NCBI RefSeq assembly: GCF_002777425.1
Contig: NZ_MDVC01000115.1
Span: 1-64,000, forward strand
DNA from: Snodgrassella alvi
GTDB lineage: Bacteria; Pseudomonadota; Gammaproteobacteria; Burkholderiales; Neisseriaceae
Direction: 5' to 3'
DNA: 64,000 bases
A program made the translations under genes and the position numbers. Every line of letters starts with the position of its first letter. Position 1 is the stretch's first letter. The notes below the pieces were generated by a model that searched no databases, was not told the DNA's origin, and worked only from the letters and a program-made list of their open reading frames with translations. Below are positions 48,227 through 54,532 of this stretch, piece by piece.

Positions 48227-50230
48227 ATGTCTAAAAATAAAACTATGAGCAAATCCATAACATACGATGAATCCAGCGTTACCGTTCTCAAAGGTCTGGC
48301 ACCAGTTAAAGAACGTCCCGGAATGTATACCAGAACGGAAAGTCCTACCCATATTATTCAGGAAGTAATTGACAATGCGGCTGATGAAGCATTAGGTGGC
48401 TACGCACAAAACATTGACGTTACCCTGAATCAGGATGGTTCTGTTACCGTCAAAGACAATGGCCGCGGCATTCCTACCGGATTACATCCAACCGAAAATG
48501 TACCCGTAGTTGAACTAGTATTTACCCAACTACATGCCGGCGGTAAATTCAATAAAAAAAGTGGCGATGGTGCCTATGCCTTTTCAGGTGGTTTACATGG
48601 TGTTGGTGTTTCTGTTACCAATGCCCTGTCCTCACGTCTGGAAGTTACCGTTAAAAGAAGCGGAAAAATTTATCATATTGCCTTTGCAGGAGGCGATGTT
48701 ATTCAGCCACTATCCATAATTGGCAAATGTGCGAATAAAGACAGTGGCACAGAAGTTCGTATCTGGCCAGACGGACAGTACTTTGATAACCCACAATACA
48801 ATCTGGCCGAACTTGAACGCTCATTACGTGCCAAAGCAGTTTTATTGCCGGGAGTCAGCGTCACCCTTACCCGCTATCACAACAACACTGATGAAGCACA
48901 CACACAAAACTGGCATTACCCAAATGGCCTGAAAAGCTATTTACTTGATTTACTGGCTGACACCCAAACTGCAACCCCGATTTTTGCCAGCGAAAACTAT
49001 TTAAACGCCAATCATGAAACCGATTTTAATCGGGGCGAAGGTGCAGCCTATGCACTAACATGGGTAGAAGAAGGCCATGCACCAAGTGAAAGTTACGTTA
49101 ACCTGATTCCTACTGCCGTTGGTGGCACTCACGAAGCCGGCCTAAAACAGGCTGTTTTTCATGCCGTAAACAATTTTATTAACCATCACAACCTGCTGCC
49201 GCGCGGCGTAAAATTGCAGTCAGATGATGTTTTCTCACGAGTAGCCTTTGTCCTTTCAGCCCGACTGCTAGACCCGCAATTTCAGGGACAGACAAAAGAT
49301 AAACTAACTAGTCGCGATGCGCTCAAACTGGTTGCCACCATGTGCAGTGATCCATTGGAATTATGGTTAAACCAGAATATCGATACTGGTAAAAAAATAG
49401 CCGAACTGGCCATTCGTCAAGCTCAGGCACGTATGCGCTCAACCAAAAAAATAGAAAAGAAAAAAGGTTCAGGCGTAGCCGTTTTACCAGGTAAACTCAC
49501 TGATTGCGAAAGTGAAGATATTCGCGAAAATGAACTCTTTCTGGTCGAGGGTGATTCTGCCGGTGGTTCAGCCAAACTGGCACGCGACAAAAATACTCAG
49601 GCCATCCTCCCCTTACGCGGTAAAGTCTTAAACAGCTTCGAAATCCATCGTGATCAATTATTTGGTAACGCTGAAATTCACGACATCTCAGTCGCCATTG
49701 GGGTAGATCCGCATGGCAAAAACGATAATCCTGATTTATCCGGTCTGCGTTACGGTAAGATTGCCATATTATCCGATGCAGATGTGGATGGTGCTCATAT
49801 ACAGGTTCTGTTACTCACCCTTTTTTATACCCATTTTCCGCGCCTGATCGAAGCCGGTCATATCTATGTGGCTCAACCGCCGCTTTTTCGTGTAGATGTG
49901 AATGCTCAGGGAAAAAACAAACCAGCAAGAAAACTTTATGCTCAGGATCAGACAGAGCTTGATAGCATTCTGGAACGGCTACAATCAGAAAAAGTTAAAG
50001 AAAGTGCTTACAGCATCAGCCGGTTTAAAGGCCTGGGTGAAATGAACCCGGATCAGCTTAAAGATACTACCATGAGTCCGGGTACCCGCTGCCTGCTGCA
50101 AGTTCATATTCCAGATGAAGACAATAGCGAAACCCAGAATATATTCGTCAAATTAATGGGTAAAGGTGAAGCAGCATCCCGACGCGTCTGGATGGAAGCA
50201 GAAGGAGACAAAGTAGAAACCGATATTTGA
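48227..50230 (+). CDS. parE: DNA topoisomerase IV subunit B
   Basis: ATPase subunit of the enzyme that unlinks replicated chromosomes. It is 667 residues. GHKL ATP site: EVIDNAADEAL and DNGRGIPTG; GGLHGVGVSVTNALS forms the ATP lid. TOPRIM: EGDSAGGSAKLARD and DADVDGAHI. The length and sequence fit ParE rather than the longer GyrB of Neisseriaceae. parC is not adjacent. ATG at 48245 is a possible alternative start. A degraded insertion sequence follows about 200 bases downstream. Confidence 0.92.
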   Translation: MSKNKTMSKSITYDESSVTVLKGLAPVKERPGMYTRTESPTHIIQEVIDNAADEALGGYAQNIDVTLNQDGSVTVKDNGRGIPTGLHPTENVPVVELVFTQLHAGGKFNKKSGDGAYAFSGGLHGVGVSVTNALSSRLEVTVKRSGKIYHIAFAGGDVIQPLSIIGKCANKDSGTEVRIWPDGQYFDNPQYNLAELERSLRAKAVLLPGVSVTLTRYHNNTDEAHTQNWHYPNGLKSYLLDLLADTQTATPIFASENYLNANHETDFNRGEGAAYALTWVEEGHAPSESYVNLIPTAVGGTHEAGLKQAVFHAVNNFINHHNLLPRGVKLQSDDVFSRVAFVLSARLLDPQFQGQTKDKLTSRDALKLVATMCSDPLELWLNQNIDTGKKIAELAIRQAQARMRSTKKIEKKKGSGVAVLPGKLTDCESEDIRENELFLVEGDSAGGSAKLARDKNTQAILPLRGKVLNSFEIHRDQLFGNAEIHDISVAIGVDPHGKNDNPDLSGLRYGKIAILSDADVDGAHIQVLLLTLFYTHFPRLIEAGHIYVAQPPLFRVDVNAQGKNKPARKLYAQDQTELDSILERLQSEKVKESAYSISRFKGLGEMNPDQLKDTTMSPGTRCLLQVHIPDEDNSETQNIFVKLMGKGEAASRRVWMEAEGDKVETDI

Positions 50231-50424: not shown

Positions 50425-51393
50425 TCAAACAACAAAATTAAAAGGTGCTAGTTTGTTAAATCCCACGGGAGCTAAATAGCTCAACAATGAATGTAACCGT
50501 TTGTGATTGTACCAATAAACATAAGCCGAAAAGGTTCGTTATGATTACCTAATTGTCATGAATTTTTCCCCTTTATCAAACTCAGTTTTAATACTTTAAA
50601 ATATTGCTGCCGACACCGCACTGTCATACGAGCATCTTTTTTACTCAGCGAGCGTTCAATATCAAATGTATTGAAACCCTTATCTAGTAATTAAATATCA
50701 AACTCCTTTCCTCTATCCGAATGAAATAGATTTAATGATGACAATGGTTGCTTAATCTGGCTTAATGCAGACATCACTAAATCTGCCGTTTTATGTTGAC
50801 TGATACTATAACCGGCAATCTGTCGATTAGATAAATTCAGTAATGCATATAAATAATTCTAGCGATGGTTAACACGAATATAGGTTAAGTCTGCCACTAC
50901 AATCTGTCGTTTGGTACCTACATCAAACTAACGTTGTAAATGATTAGCTGTTGCGGCGCCATTGCTTAACGAATTCGTCTGGTTCCATATAATTGGTAGC
51001 TGCGATTAAAAATAGTCAATATTTTATCAGTGTAATCGGCCACTGCTTTCTGTTTAGTTGCTTTGCTCCGATAATAGACATACCGTCCATGTAGCCCTAA
51101 GCAGCGACATAATGCCGTTCATTATAACGATGCTGGTTTGCTCTCAGGGTTTTGATTTTCGTCCCATGACATGATCAGTGCAGTTTGCTTTAGGATATCG
51201 TTTTCCATTCGTAGCGGCTTAAGCTCTTTTCGTAACACAATTAGTTCATTTTTTGAGGTACAGTTATCTTTAATCTTAAATGAACCGCTTTGACCAATTC
51301 ACTGCGCGATTTCCCCTGCTGATAAAGTTTGACTATTTGCGATTTGAAATCAGCACTAAAGATCCATCGTGCACATTTTTCTTGATTCATCAT
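50425..51393 (-). pseudogene. Degraded IS3-family transposase
   Basis: OrfA begins MMNQEKCARWIFSADFKSQI and breaks within 40 codons. OrfB pieces follow in shifting frames: VVADLTYIRV (first Asp), FHSDRGKEFD (second Asp), SYDSAVSAAIF where intact relatives have a catalytic Glu, and the C-terminal VYWYNHKRLHSLLSYLAPV. Several stops and frameshifts are present, and the Glu position is Ala, so it cannot transpose. It belongs to a different IS3 subgroup from the element at 1-692. Terminal repeats could not be fixed. Confidence 0.8.
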
Positions 51394-51560
51394 CTTTTCT
51401 TTTTAGAGTTAAGTTTACCTTACCCCTAAAAAAAGTTGTATGAATTAGTGTAGCCTATCCAAACCTATTTCCCACCCTTAACATTTAATCATACTAATAG
51501 CAGTTAAGGTTAATTAACCTCAACACTTACACTTATCTACCCTAGTCTAAATTTTGTAAC

Positions 51561-51631
51561 TTGATTAATATCAAGAAATCTCTAATAAAGTAATTTTATC
51601 CTCCATAATCCGTTTTTCATAATGCTATAAT
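51561..51631 (+). promoter_or_regulatory. Perfect FNR box with an extended -10 downstream
   Basis: TTGATTAATATCAA (51561-51574) matches the symmetric FNR consensus exactly. An extended -10 TGCTATAAT ends at 51631, giving a start near 51638 with the box at about -70, a class I position. The Roadblock gene begins about 210 bases later. The box may also act on the minus strand. Confidence 0.5.
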
Positions 51632-51781
51632 TAATTGTTTCCCTAAAAATATATGACTAACGAAAGTAATAGTTAACTTAAATTTTGCGCTATAAAAGTA
51701 TCAGATCAATAAAAATAAAATAACATAAATAAATATAGAAAATATAAATAAAGATAATTAATAAAATTTAATAACATTCTT

Positions 51782-51810
51782 TTGCAAAAAAACTCGCCCC
51801 TCTCTATAAT
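51782..51810 (+). promoter_or_regulatory. Sigma70-type promoter of the Roadblock gene
   Basis: TTGCAA (51782-51787), 17-base spacer, TATAAT (51805-51810), predicted start near 51817. An inverted repeat attgac / gtcaat (51809-51829) covers the start and could be an operator. GAGGAA precedes the ATG. Confidence 0.55.
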
Positions 51811-51845
51811 TGACAGGGTTATAGTCAATTTTTAGAGGAATTTTC

Positions 51846-52208
51846 ATGAAATATGATTTTATTGAAGGTGTGTTGAAAACACTGAACAGTACTCCCGACA
51901 TTACTTCTTCAGCCGTTATTTCAACAGATGGTCTGCCAATCGCTTCTGCATTACAGAGCGGCATGGATGAAGACCGTATTGGTGCCATGGCAGCCGCATT
52001 ACTGTCTTTGGGTAACCGTTCTGCAAAAGAAGTTTTGAAAGGCACTCTGGATAATACTATTATTCATACCGATAAAGGTTACATGTTGCTGTTTCAAGCA
52101 TCTGAAGCCATCCTGTTAACCATTACTACCACTCATGAAGCCAAATTAGGTTTGATTCTGTTTGAAGCTAAACGAGCATTGAAAGAACTGGCTGATCATT
52201 TTGATTAA
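51846..52208 (+). CDS. Roadblock/LC7-domain protein
   Basis: A 120-residue cytoplasmic protein covering one Roadblock/LC7 (MglB-like) domain: DITSSAVISTDGLPIASAL near the N-terminus, the helix DRIGAMAAALLSLGNRSAKE, and strands TIIHTDKGYMLLFQA and ILLTITTT. Such proteins dimerise and often regulate small Ras-like GTPases (MglB acts on MglA). No GTPase gene is in this window. Its partner may be the PAS or PhnD-like protein 460 bases downstream, or a GTPase elsewhere. It has its own promoter and good Shine-Dalgarno sequence. Confidence 0.88.
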   Translation: MKYDFIEGVLKTLNSTPDITSSAVISTDGLPIASALQSGMDEDRIGAMAAALLSLGNRSAKEVLKGTLDNTIIHTDKGYMLLFQASEAILLTITTTHEAKLGLILFEAKRALKELADHFD

Positions 52209-52666
52209 CAATTAGTTTGCTTAATCAGAAATGTACTGTGCCATTTAAATTCCCGCTCATGCATCATTGTAATTATTTATTTTATAAATAATTTTGCAAT
52301 AAGTATACAATACTGTATAAATCAGACCAGATAGTCCAGTATTGCCGTTATCCCAGATTCTATGTAAAAATCTGGCCGGATTTATGTCAGATAAACCTGA
52401 AAAAGACGAAAGCTGACTCAACTGCATGAAAGGGCGTTTAAGTGTTTATAAAAGTTTTTAATGAAAACATCGCATATCTATAAATTGGGTAAATATTATT
52501 TCATCCCAATTACATGGAAATTCAGAAGTTTATAGTAGCGATTAATGTATAAGACCAGAAATAACTTTGGCTGCTGTAATTTTACAAAAAAACTCTGAAA
52601 TGCATCTCGTTAAGTACACTCATCCTTTATTATTCAGATTAAACCAAAATTGAAGGACAAATTAAT
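52209..52666. other. Gap between the Roadblock and PAS genes
   Basis: 458 AT-rich bases with no open frame of note. A weak hairpin ccagatt / aatctgg lies at 52353-52375 without a good T tract. The gap suggests that the PAS gene has its own promoter, but none is obvious. Confidence 0.45.
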
Positions 52667-53170
52667 ATGGATATGAGTCGTTGGATTCAGCCAAAGCCAG
52701 AAAGCGAATCTTCTGAGCACAAAATCAAACACTATCATCAAGATGGAGAATCAACTGTTTATGTAACCAATGAGGAATTCCCCTATCCGGATGGCGCTCT
52801 GATTGTATCTCGCACTGATCTTAATGGCATCATTACTCATGCAAATGACGTATTTGTTGATATCAGCGGCTGGGCCCGTGATGAAATCATTGGTGCACCA
52901 CATTGCCTGTTACGCCATCCCGAAATGCCAAAAGCACCATTTGCCGACATGTGGGCTACTCTGCAAAGAGGCGAACGCTGGTATGGTTACGTAAAAAATC
53001 TGCGCAAAGACGGCGGCCACTATTGGGTATACGCCACTGTAATTCCAAATTTACGTCAAGGCAAAGTAATTGGCTACAGCTCAATCCGCCGCAAACCAAG
53101 CCGTGAACGGATTAACGAAATGACCGCCAAGTATGCAGAAATGCTGAAAAACGAACAGGAAGGAAAATAA
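52667..53170 (+). CDS. Stand-alone Aer-type PAS-domain protein
   Basis: A 167-residue cytoplasmic protein with one PAS domain at about residues 40-142. It closely matches the PAS of the aerotaxis receptor Aer: ITHANDVFVDISGWARDEIIG, LLRHPEMPKAPFADMW and LRKDGGHYWVYATVIP. In Aer this domain binds FAD and reads redox state. Here there is no membrane segment, HAMP or chemoreceptor part, so the signal must pass to another protein. AAGGA precedes the start. The next gene begins one base after the stop, with its ribosome binding site inside this gene, so the two are coupled. Confidence 0.88.
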   Translation: MDMSRWIQPKPESESSEHKIKHYHQDGESTVYVTNEEFPYPDGALIVSRTDLNGIITHANDVFVDISGWARDEIIGAPHCLLRHPEMPKAPFADMWATLQRGERWYGYVKNLRKDGGHYWVYATVIPNLRQGKVIGYSSIRRKPSRERINEMTAKYAEMLKNEQEGK

Positions 53171-53171
53171 T

Positions 53172-53918
53172 ATGCTGAGTTTAATGGTTGTACCCGATTA
53201 TCTACCTGATCAGTTCAGCACTTGGTATTTGCTCAACAACTACCTGCAAAAGAAAAGCGACCAGAACATTTCCCTGCTTATGCCCCCTTCATTTGATGAA
53301 GTAAAAGCACAGCAGGAAAAAGAAAAAGTATCCATGCTTTTCGTGAATCCTTTTTCAGCCGGTAACTACGTTCGTGAACAAGGATATTTGCCACTGGTAA
53401 AACCAAAAAACAAATCAGATGAAATCGTGATTGTTACTGCTGCCGACTCAGATATCAATGCCATTGAAGATCTGAAAGGCAATGTAGAATTAGCACTTTC
53501 TAACAATGAAGATGCAAACTTTATTGGTTTACGCCTGTTGGAACCAGCCAATCTTAGCGATGATGAAATCATCATCAAACGCAAAGACAACTTCCTCATG
53601 GTAGCTTCCGGTGTCATTCGCCATCATGCTAAAATTGGGATTGTTCAGGCAGATGTATATGAAAGCTTTAACTCAGTTACCAAAAATCAGTTGAAAGTGC
53701 TGCTGAAAAGCCGGATTAATGAAGTTTCACATGTGATGTTATATCACCCAGACGTTGCTGCAAAAGCTGAACCACTACAAGAAATACTGTGCAAAATGGC
53801 AGATGACCCTGATGGTGCCAATGTTGTCAAAGCCTTAGGCTTTCCAGAAGGCTTCGCTGAATTATCAAAAGAAGATATGGAATTTATGATTGACGTTGTA
53901 GATACAATGCGCATGTAA
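53172..53918 (+). CDS. PhnD-like solute-binding-fold protein without signal peptide
   Basis: A 248-residue protein resembling phosphate/phosphonate ABC substrate-binding proteins (PhnD-like): SMLFVNPFSAGNYVREQGYLPLV, VTAADSDINAIEDLKGNVEL, and KIGIVQADVYESFN. Unlike transporters' binding proteins it starts MLSLMVVPDYLPDQ with no signal peptide or lipobox, so it should stay in the cytoplasm. Translation is coupled to the Aer-type PAS gene one base upstream. It probably senses a small ligand or takes part in signalling, not uptake. No ABC transporter genes are near. A strong terminator ends the unit. Confidence 0.78.
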   Translation: MLSLMVVPDYLPDQFSTWYLLNNYLQKKSDQNISLLMPPSFDEVKAQQEKEKVSMLFVNPFSAGNYVREQGYLPLVKPKNKSDEIVIVTAADSDINAIEDLKGNVELALSNNEDANFIGLRLLEPANLSDDEIIIKRKDNFLMVASGVIRHHAKIGIVQADVYESFNSVTKNQLKVLLKSRINEVSHVMLYHPDVAAKAEPLQEILCKMADDPDGANVVKALGFPEGFAELSKEDMEFMIDVVDTMRM

Positions 53919-53934
53919 TTTCCCTAGCTTATAC

Positions 53935-53975
53935 CAACCCGTGTAACCCTACTAAGGGCACACGGGTTGTTTTAT
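53935..53975 (+). terminator. Terminator after the PhnD-like gene
   Basis: A 10-bp stem caacccgtgt / acacgggttg with an inner ccct / aggg pairing, then tttt. Confidence 0.87.
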
Positions 53976-54532
53976 ATATAAGCCTTTATCTGGAAACCAG
54001 ATAAACCAAATCAGAGAATTTTAACTTTTACAATATAATTCCAAATTAAAAGGCATTTTAATTGCCAAAAATATACTATTATCTATTTATTCATAAAAAA
54101 TAAACTCAGTCTATTTTTAAAATTTTCAAATAAAACATTATTCTAATCTGAAAAACCAGCGACACTTCAATCAAAAACAATGTCCCCCTATTTAAAATCA
54201 GGTTGTAAACTTCTCACCCATAAAAGTTCACAAGAACAAATGAACAGCCAATTGTTTTCAAGATAGATTGAGGAAACTCTAAAATATTAAAAGAATTCGA
54301 AAAACATTAAGTAATTCTCAATATATTTCAGATAATGCACTTAACTTCATCCAAGCTGATTCTCTCAAGAGTAAAAAGCGTGTTCAATCCAGAAATCATT
54401 TCTATTAACTTATTATTATTAATTTATGAAGTACTTATACAATACGTCACAATCTATGTATTTATACCAATGAATCAAAGCTAAACATGATTCTGTTATA
54501 ATAAATCAAACCATCATTAATAAATAACAATT
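53976..54532. other. AT-rich gap before the MFS gene
   Basis: About 560 bases with many stops in all frames and no recognised element. It presumably contains the promoter of the MFS gene. Confidence 0.5.

Follow-up and report, generated by a model that had tools for sequence, protein, structure and literature searches.

A conserved Roadblock, PAS and PhnD-fold gene module in Snodgrassella alvi as a candidate sensory input of Group 3 MglA/MglB systems

We find that three neighbouring genes of Snodgrassella alvi, located in the 64,000-nucleotide stretch of contig NZ_MDVC01000115.1 that was analysed (the window), form a conserved module, and we suggest that this module is the sensory input of a Group 3 MglA/MglB system, a reading to which we give a probability of roughly 0.68. 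The genes encode a Roadblock/LC7 protein, a stand-alone PAS protein of the Aer type that is predicted to bind flavin adenine dinucleotide (FAD), and a PhnD-fold protein that is predicted to stay in the cytosol. An earlier reading of this DNA (the original prediction) had placed three genes with signalling folds here, and both the coordinates and the Pfam matches agree with it:

51846..52208, forward strand: Roadblock/LC7 protein, MglB-type, 120 amino acids (Pfam Robl_LC7, 2.8e-15)
52667..53170, forward strand: stand-alone Aer-type PAS protein, predicted FAD sensor, 167 amino acids (Pfam PAS_3, 3.6e-12; PDB 8dik, 6.4e-41)
53172..53918, forward strand: predicted cytosolic PhnD-fold protein, 248 amino acids (Pfam Phosphonate-bd, 5.6e-32)

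Conservation of the three genes

The best 80 of 201 relatives of the window PhnD protein make up our set of named loci (Moraxellaceae 25, Comamonadaceae 23, Neisseriaceae 17, Lysobacteraceae 5, others 10), and the nearest relative among them, from strain Nev4-2, is 98% identical. PAS adjoins PhnD in all 80 of these loci with a median gap of 1 nucleotide (nt), and Roadblock lies on the same strand 8–483 nt upstream of PAS in 70/80. The gap between Roadblock and PAS is below 60 nt in 42 of the 70 loci that have a Roadblock gene and 83–483 nt in the rest, and it is 458 nt in the window. The three families, which the original prediction expected to find together in relatives, do so in Neisseriaceae, Comamonadaceae, Moraxellaceae and Lysobacteraceae.

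The PhnD protein was found in 21 of 41 genomes related to that of the window, and the best loci of these 21 contain PAS in 20 (it is missing in G014, locus L026) and Roadblock in 13, in five genera. An even draw of 323 genomes from the class contained PhnD in 19 (threshold E<=1e-20). Three of these genomes (G064, G194 and G288; loci L133–L135, PhnD scores of 139–170 bits, no adjoining PAS or Roadblock) were left out of the module count, and in the remaining module genomes PAS and Roadblock stand beside PhnD in 16/16, in G319 as fragments only. In a sample of the phylum (n=299, PhnD threshold E<=1e-25) four genomes matched; the trio is present in G561 and G590 besides the window's own genome, and G527 has a GTPase, Roadblock and PhnD with the PAS match absent. 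The PhnD-fold frame of G527 (L198) is 383 amino acids long, and residues 1–138 of it have no Pfam match. The order of the genes varies, being PAS-Roadblock-PhnD in G020 (L024), and PhnD occurs in tandem in G017 and G561; this combination of varying order with constant content argues for a shared function. A chance cluster was rejected on the counts for PAS and Roadblock in the named loci and on the recurrence in the class sample.

The Roadblock protein of the window scores 56.2 bits against a Robl_LC7 cut-off of 23, and it is 48% identical to an mglA-coupled Roadblock protein of 121 amino acids that is encoded on contig C107 of the same genome. An NCBIfam scan assigned neither the Roadblock proteins nor the receiver-like proteins of 383 to 405 amino acids described below to any family. 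Meng et al. (2024; PMC11112851) passaged mutagenised S. communis through a non-native bee and report that a G78R mutation (GGA to AGA) in an "orphan mglB-3" swept one lineage; the strain bearing it had an altered colony shape on 0.5% agar, won in competition in Apis and lost in the native Bombus. As codon 78 of the window Roadblock gene encodes Gly and is GGA in S. communis LMG 28360, in line with the reported mutation, the gene matches this published mglB-3, and is in itself not new. Residue 78 is invariant across seven aligned Roadblock proteins. Meng et al. treat mglB-3 as an orphan duplicate, refer to a transposon sequencing (Tn-seq) data set in which mglB-1, -2 and -3 are each beneficial for gut colonisation, and assign the MglA of S. 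communis to Group 3 (section 18). In the running text of that paper, as distinct from its figures, the word "phosphonate" is absent, its abstract and sections 18 and 19 leave the adjoining PAS-PhnD pair unmentioned, and the module described here gives context for a mutation selected during passage in a non-native host. Meng et al. place one mutation both at nucleotide 235 and at residue 78, and one of these positions must be wrong by a single codon: in this gene nucleotide 235 falls in codon 79, while the reported GGA is codon 78 in S. communis.

Upstream of the Roadblock gene, decayed fragments resembling an IS3-type transposase were seen by eye in several frames of the minus strand (50425–51402), between it and a gene that, likewise by eye, is gyrB/parE-like (48227–50230). 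Downstream of the trio there are no open reading frames of at least 70 amino acids at 53919–54532, and 614 nt past PhnD, from 54533, follows a gene for a membrane protein of 465 amino acids that by eye resembles an MFS transporter. A promoter scan found 12 sites against a mean of 13.8 in shuffled sequence, which is no excess.

Association with an MglA-type GTPase

The original prediction had the module perhaps reporting to the Roadblock protein or a distant GTPase. In the S. alvi assembly (2.58 Mb, 115 contigs) the trio lies on contig C115, and an mgl locus on C107 encodes, in this order, a protein of 478 amino acids, a receiver-like protein of 383, an MglA of 178, a Roadblock-like protein of 219, whose 19.1 bits fall short of the 23 bits required by Pfam, and the Roadblock protein of 121. 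This locus shows the coupling of one or two MglB homologues to mglA that is characteristic of Group 3. In an alignment of 11 GTPases, with that of the window genome as the first row, T68-P69-G70 and D154-A155-R156 are invariant. A Thr in G3 marks the MglA family and DAR in G5 marks Groups 2 and 3 (PMC3000849, PMC4316618), and the aligned GTPases thus carry both marks of a Group 3 MglA.

In a number of other genomes the two parts are found together. Genes for the receiver-like protein, the MglA-type GTPase, a second Roadblock-like protein, Roadblock, PAS and PhnD are contiguous in L099, L105 and L107 (from Candidatus Thiodiazotropha, a Ctena symbiont and a Pseudomonadales genome), and in 17 further named loci, from Moraxella, one Psychrobacter, several Comamonadaceae and unclassified genomes, the GTPase is encoded 1.5–2.7 kb downstream of PhnD. 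Psychrobacter loci such as L087, L093 and L100 have a weak second-Roadblock-like match (24–29 bits) downstream of PhnD, and in these loci the search for a GTPase was negative. In the class sample (GTPase threshold E<=1e-15, at most ten candidates scored per genome) the GTPase is present in 62 genomes, PhnD in 19 and both in 17, which gives p = 1.1e-11 in a Fisher's test that counts related genomes as independent. The GTPase thus accompanies PhnD in 17/19 genomes if G064, G194 and G288 are kept and in 14/16 without them; in 13 of these 14, spread over nine families, it is encoded 1.3–2.2 kb upstream of PhnD, and the window's own genome is the module genome with the GTPase on another contig. All 21 relatives of the window genome that have PhnD also have the GTPase, which occurs alone in G019, G022 and, weakly, G031. 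From these counts we conclude that the module is accompanied by the GTPase, which for its part can exist without the module.

The 478-amino-acid protein that heads the mgl locus (L007:2469–3905, on C107) has TPR matches below the curated cut-offs, and in L099 and L107, too, similar weak TPR proteins are encoded ahead of the receiver-like gene. G169 (L138) contains what by eye is the C-terminal part of a receiver-like protein, then a PhnD-fold frame of 405 amino acids and then Roadblock-PAS-PhnD.

A gene of the size of the receiver-like gene adjoins the GTPase, and this raises the question of whether the output of Group 3 loci is a receiver-like/winged-helix protein acting on transcription, with pili affected indirectly. 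Transcriptional control by Group 3 systems has been proposed (PMC4316618, section 18), and one member gives a weak match to Response_reg (E 0.014). The model of the receiver-like protein has a beta/alpha N-terminal half but is poor (predicted local distance difference test, pLDDT, 57.9) and leaves the winged helix unconfirmed, and in Snodgrassella the receiver-like gene and the module are on different contigs. We therefore regard such a branch as a doubtful, though not negligible, alternative, and one that is partly compatible with the sensory input to MglA that we favour.

Predicted inputs and output of the module

The PAS protein was predicted to have lost any receptor part, and this is borne out by its 167 amino acids, in which nothing beyond the PAS fold and its families exceeds the curated Pfam cut-offs, and by its nearest solved relative, the PAS domain of Aer (8dik). 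The residues of Aer that contact FAD are H53, R57, W70, N85 and R115, with M69 also named (PMC9668731). The first five correspond to H79, R83, W96, N111 and R141 here and are invariant in 13/13 aligned sequences, while the counterpart of M69 is Met in the window PAS and variable among the 13. The protein thus very likely binds FAD, to judge from these contacts, which are also the only evidence for the redox sensing that the original prediction proposed. No MCPsignal match was found in the whole Snodgrassella genome, although the same search was positive in 7/14 control genomes, and we conclude that the PAS protein has no output of the Aer or chemoreceptor type. An aerotaxis receptor was accordingly rejected; it would have a HAMP and a methyl-accepting domain.

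For the PhnD-like protein, the loss of an export signal and a start one base from PAS had been predicted, and both were confirmed. The PAS stop codon is at 53168–53170 and the PhnD ATG at 53172, and upstream of this start the frame is open for merely 8 residues (256 versus 248 amino acids), so that no signal peptide can be encoded. A signal peptide encoded upstream, which would have counted against the prediction, has no room in the window or in 80/80 named loci, in which the PAS stop codon is found anywhere from 83 nt ahead of the first position of the fold to 4 nt within it, with a median of 1 nt. The AlphaFold2 model of the protein is good (pLDDT 91.6, predicted template modelling score 0.83) and superposes on PtxB (VIA Z 22.7, root-mean-square deviation 3.1, 237 aligned). 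Foldseek lists XAC2383 (E 3.4e-16), ArrX (1.4e-14), AioX, PtxB and E. coli PhnD among the top matches. The Phosphonate-bd fold could point to the subunit of an ABC importer that is exported by some other route. We consider this extremely improbable: besides the missing room for a signal peptide, the score against the NCBIfam PhnD equivalog is 20.1 bits, far below the cut-off of 261.1, and the flanking genes encode the PAS protein and the MFS-like membrane protein. An ABC transporter subunit was rejected on the first two of these grounds.

In PtxB and ArrX a Ser-rich loop serves as oxyanion loop. In the module this loop is replaced by NxD or DxD: in an alignment of 48 of the 80 named loci plus the window (49 rows), D114 is present in 49/49 and N112 in 45/49, and in the class sample the loop is mostly DxD, with Glu at 114 in G169 (L119). 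As the loop is replaced, the ligand is probably neither phosphonate nor phosphate, and the loop gives no support to the ligand sensing that the original prediction drew from the fold. The C-terminal helix has E234, E237, D241 and T245 in 49/49 rows, spaced such that they lie on one face; there is a departure at E237 in a damaged locus of the class sample (L131), and D241 is absent from three soluble PhnD proteins that do not belong to the module. We infer that this face may dock onto Roadblock or PAS. A protein of 463 amino acids in G194 (L137:1393–2784, minus strand) joins a STAS domain to a soluble domain of PhnD fold, which is another apparently cytosolic use of the fold.

The conserved face, which suggests a protein contact, could also mean that PAS-PhnD is itself a regulator of nucleotide exchange or activity of MglA, and that the Roadblock proteins act in parallel and are not its target. 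Ten Neisseriaceae loci with PAS-PhnD pairs that lack an adjoining Roadblock would fit this, and RomR/RomX of Myxococcus has a role as guanine nucleotide exchange factor (PMC9481161). On the other hand, Roadblock is upstream of PAS in most named loci, exchange activity would be ascribed by analogy, and in G527 the PhnD-fold gene follows Roadblock and the GTPase in the absence of PAS. We find this alternative unlikely, and favor the view that PAS and PhnD act on MglA by way of the Roadblock protein.

In that view, the PAS protein would bind FAD and read the redox or respiratory state, and the PhnD-fold protein, made together with it, would bind a small cytosolic ligand or partner and close like a clamshell. 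The two may act jointly on the MglB-type Roadblock protein (MglB-3 here), presumably by direct contact, and MglB-3 would determine whether MglA, of which the genome encodes a single copy at another site, is loaded with GTP. In its GTP-bound form MglA could then steer type IV pili, that is their polarity and extension and the spreading of cells on surfaces, and perhaps also influence gene expression by way of the receiver-like protein from the mgl locus. We place the output at type IV pili because a TPR-like protein heads the mgl locus, PilT is present and the mglB-3 mutant spreads differently. Taken further, a cytosolic sensor with two channels, flavin redox in PAS and a metabolite bound by an exapted binding protein, would gate MglB on MglA in a widespread proteobacterial system, and would couple the respiratory and metabolite state to pilus behaviour and host colonisation; to this extended proposal we give slightly less than even odds.

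Several observations weigh against this reading. The GTPase is within the locus DNA in only 20/80 named loci, which slightly lowers our confidence both in the sensory input to MglA and in its extension to two channels, and as 65/80 loci extend 3.5 kb or more to either side of PhnD this low count does not come from short DNA. In the named-locus DNA, to which this search was confined, the GTPase was found in 0/17 Neisseriaceae, 0/5 Lysobacteraceae and one Psychrobacter locus. The predicted GTPase is supported by its presence in the same cluster in 13/16 class module genomes and on another contig in the window's own genome, and the DNA of most named loci does not show it. Among module genomes it was not found in G169 and G357, with at most ten candidates scored in each, and it occurs without the module in 48/307 other class genomes. 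The relatedness of genomes in the Fisher's test, and the origin of 10/11 sequences of the GTPase profile from module-bearing loci, call for caution on the linkage.

The trio is, moreover, not obligate, since G001 and G003 (both Snodgrassella) and G024 retain Roadblock without an adjoining PAS or PhnD, and since the ten named loci that lack an adjoining Roadblock are all Neisseriaceae PAS-PhnD pairs. Each of G001, G003 and G024 still carries a PAS-PhnD pair elsewhere in the genome, and in three of the ten (L068, L086 and L097) the pair is the second one of a genome that contributes its trio to the named set as well; the window genome likewise has a second pair on contig C2, 58% and 34% identical to the first, without an adjoining Roadblock. 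The lone Roadblock genes would also be expected if a transporter subunit turned to a new use and a stray PAS merely hitch-hiked beside an mglB gene. We think this very unlikely, as several gene orders have been kept, including PAS-Roadblock-PhnD and the GTPase upstream or downstream, as the GTPase is linked in nine families of the class sample, and as both the PAS and the PhnD proteins have invariant residues. As to the output, the phenotype of mglB-3 comes from one evolved strain and a background control, the pilus link rests on this published mutant and on homology, and the presence of PilT in 41/41 genomes of the set of relatives puts that link beyond testing by co-occurrence. Taken as a whole, the original prediction is partly supported, and we retain the module as the likely input of the MglA/MglB system.

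Comparison with known GTPase systems

Group 3 MglA systems were described from beta- and gamma-proteobacteria (Wuichet and Sogaard-Andersen; PMC4316618), and the systems found here share with them an MglA with the G3 Thr and the G5 DAR, one or two coupled MglB proteins and an adjoining, putatively receiver-like protein. They differ from that survey in the PAS and PhnD genes that stand next to many of them; the words "PAS" and "phosphonate" occur zero times in its main text, as distinct from its supplement, and its section 18 on signalling links names no sensor for Group 3. What switches the Group 3 MglA-type GTPases of proteobacteria is thus a question for which the conserved PAS-PhnD pair with an MglB gene gives a concrete candidate input, and one that applies in Moraxella, Psychrobacter, Comamonadaceae, Lysobacteraceae and bee symbionts. 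In the literature accessible to us, which comprised main texts and few subscription papers, and leaving aside the conservon paper cited below, we found no publication on a combined PAS-PhnD-Roadblock module, and an earlier mention in figures, supplements or other papers is possible.

The weak TPR proteins of the mgl loci have a parallel in SgmX of Myxococcus. With Aer of E. coli the window PAS has the five flavin-contact residues in common, whereas the HAMP and MCP part belongs to Aer and has no counterpart in the window protein. ArrX, AioX and XAC2383, which have the same fold as the PhnD-like protein by Foldseek, use this binding-protein fold for signalling in the periplasm, in partnership with membrane kinases or a cyclase. 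The window protein is, in contrast, predicted to be cytosolic and is tied to a GTPase system, which suggests that a solute-binding protein fold has shifted from the periplasm into cytosolic signalling.

In the conservons of actinobacteria (Group 2; CvnA-D), too, a sensor shares an operon with a Roadblock protein and a GTPase of the MglA type (PMC13343842). The families of the scanned proteins, namely the window trio and the cluster genes of L067, L107, L007 and L099, include no CvnA-like histidine kinase, and a conservon was rejected for want of a kinase among them. The sensor of the conservons is histidine-kinase-like, whereas here a soluble PAS protein and a soluble PhnD-fold protein take its place. 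MglA/MglB systems, PAS domains of the Aer type and sensors with the PhnD fold are thus each known, and the comparison suggests that it is their union in one module that is new.

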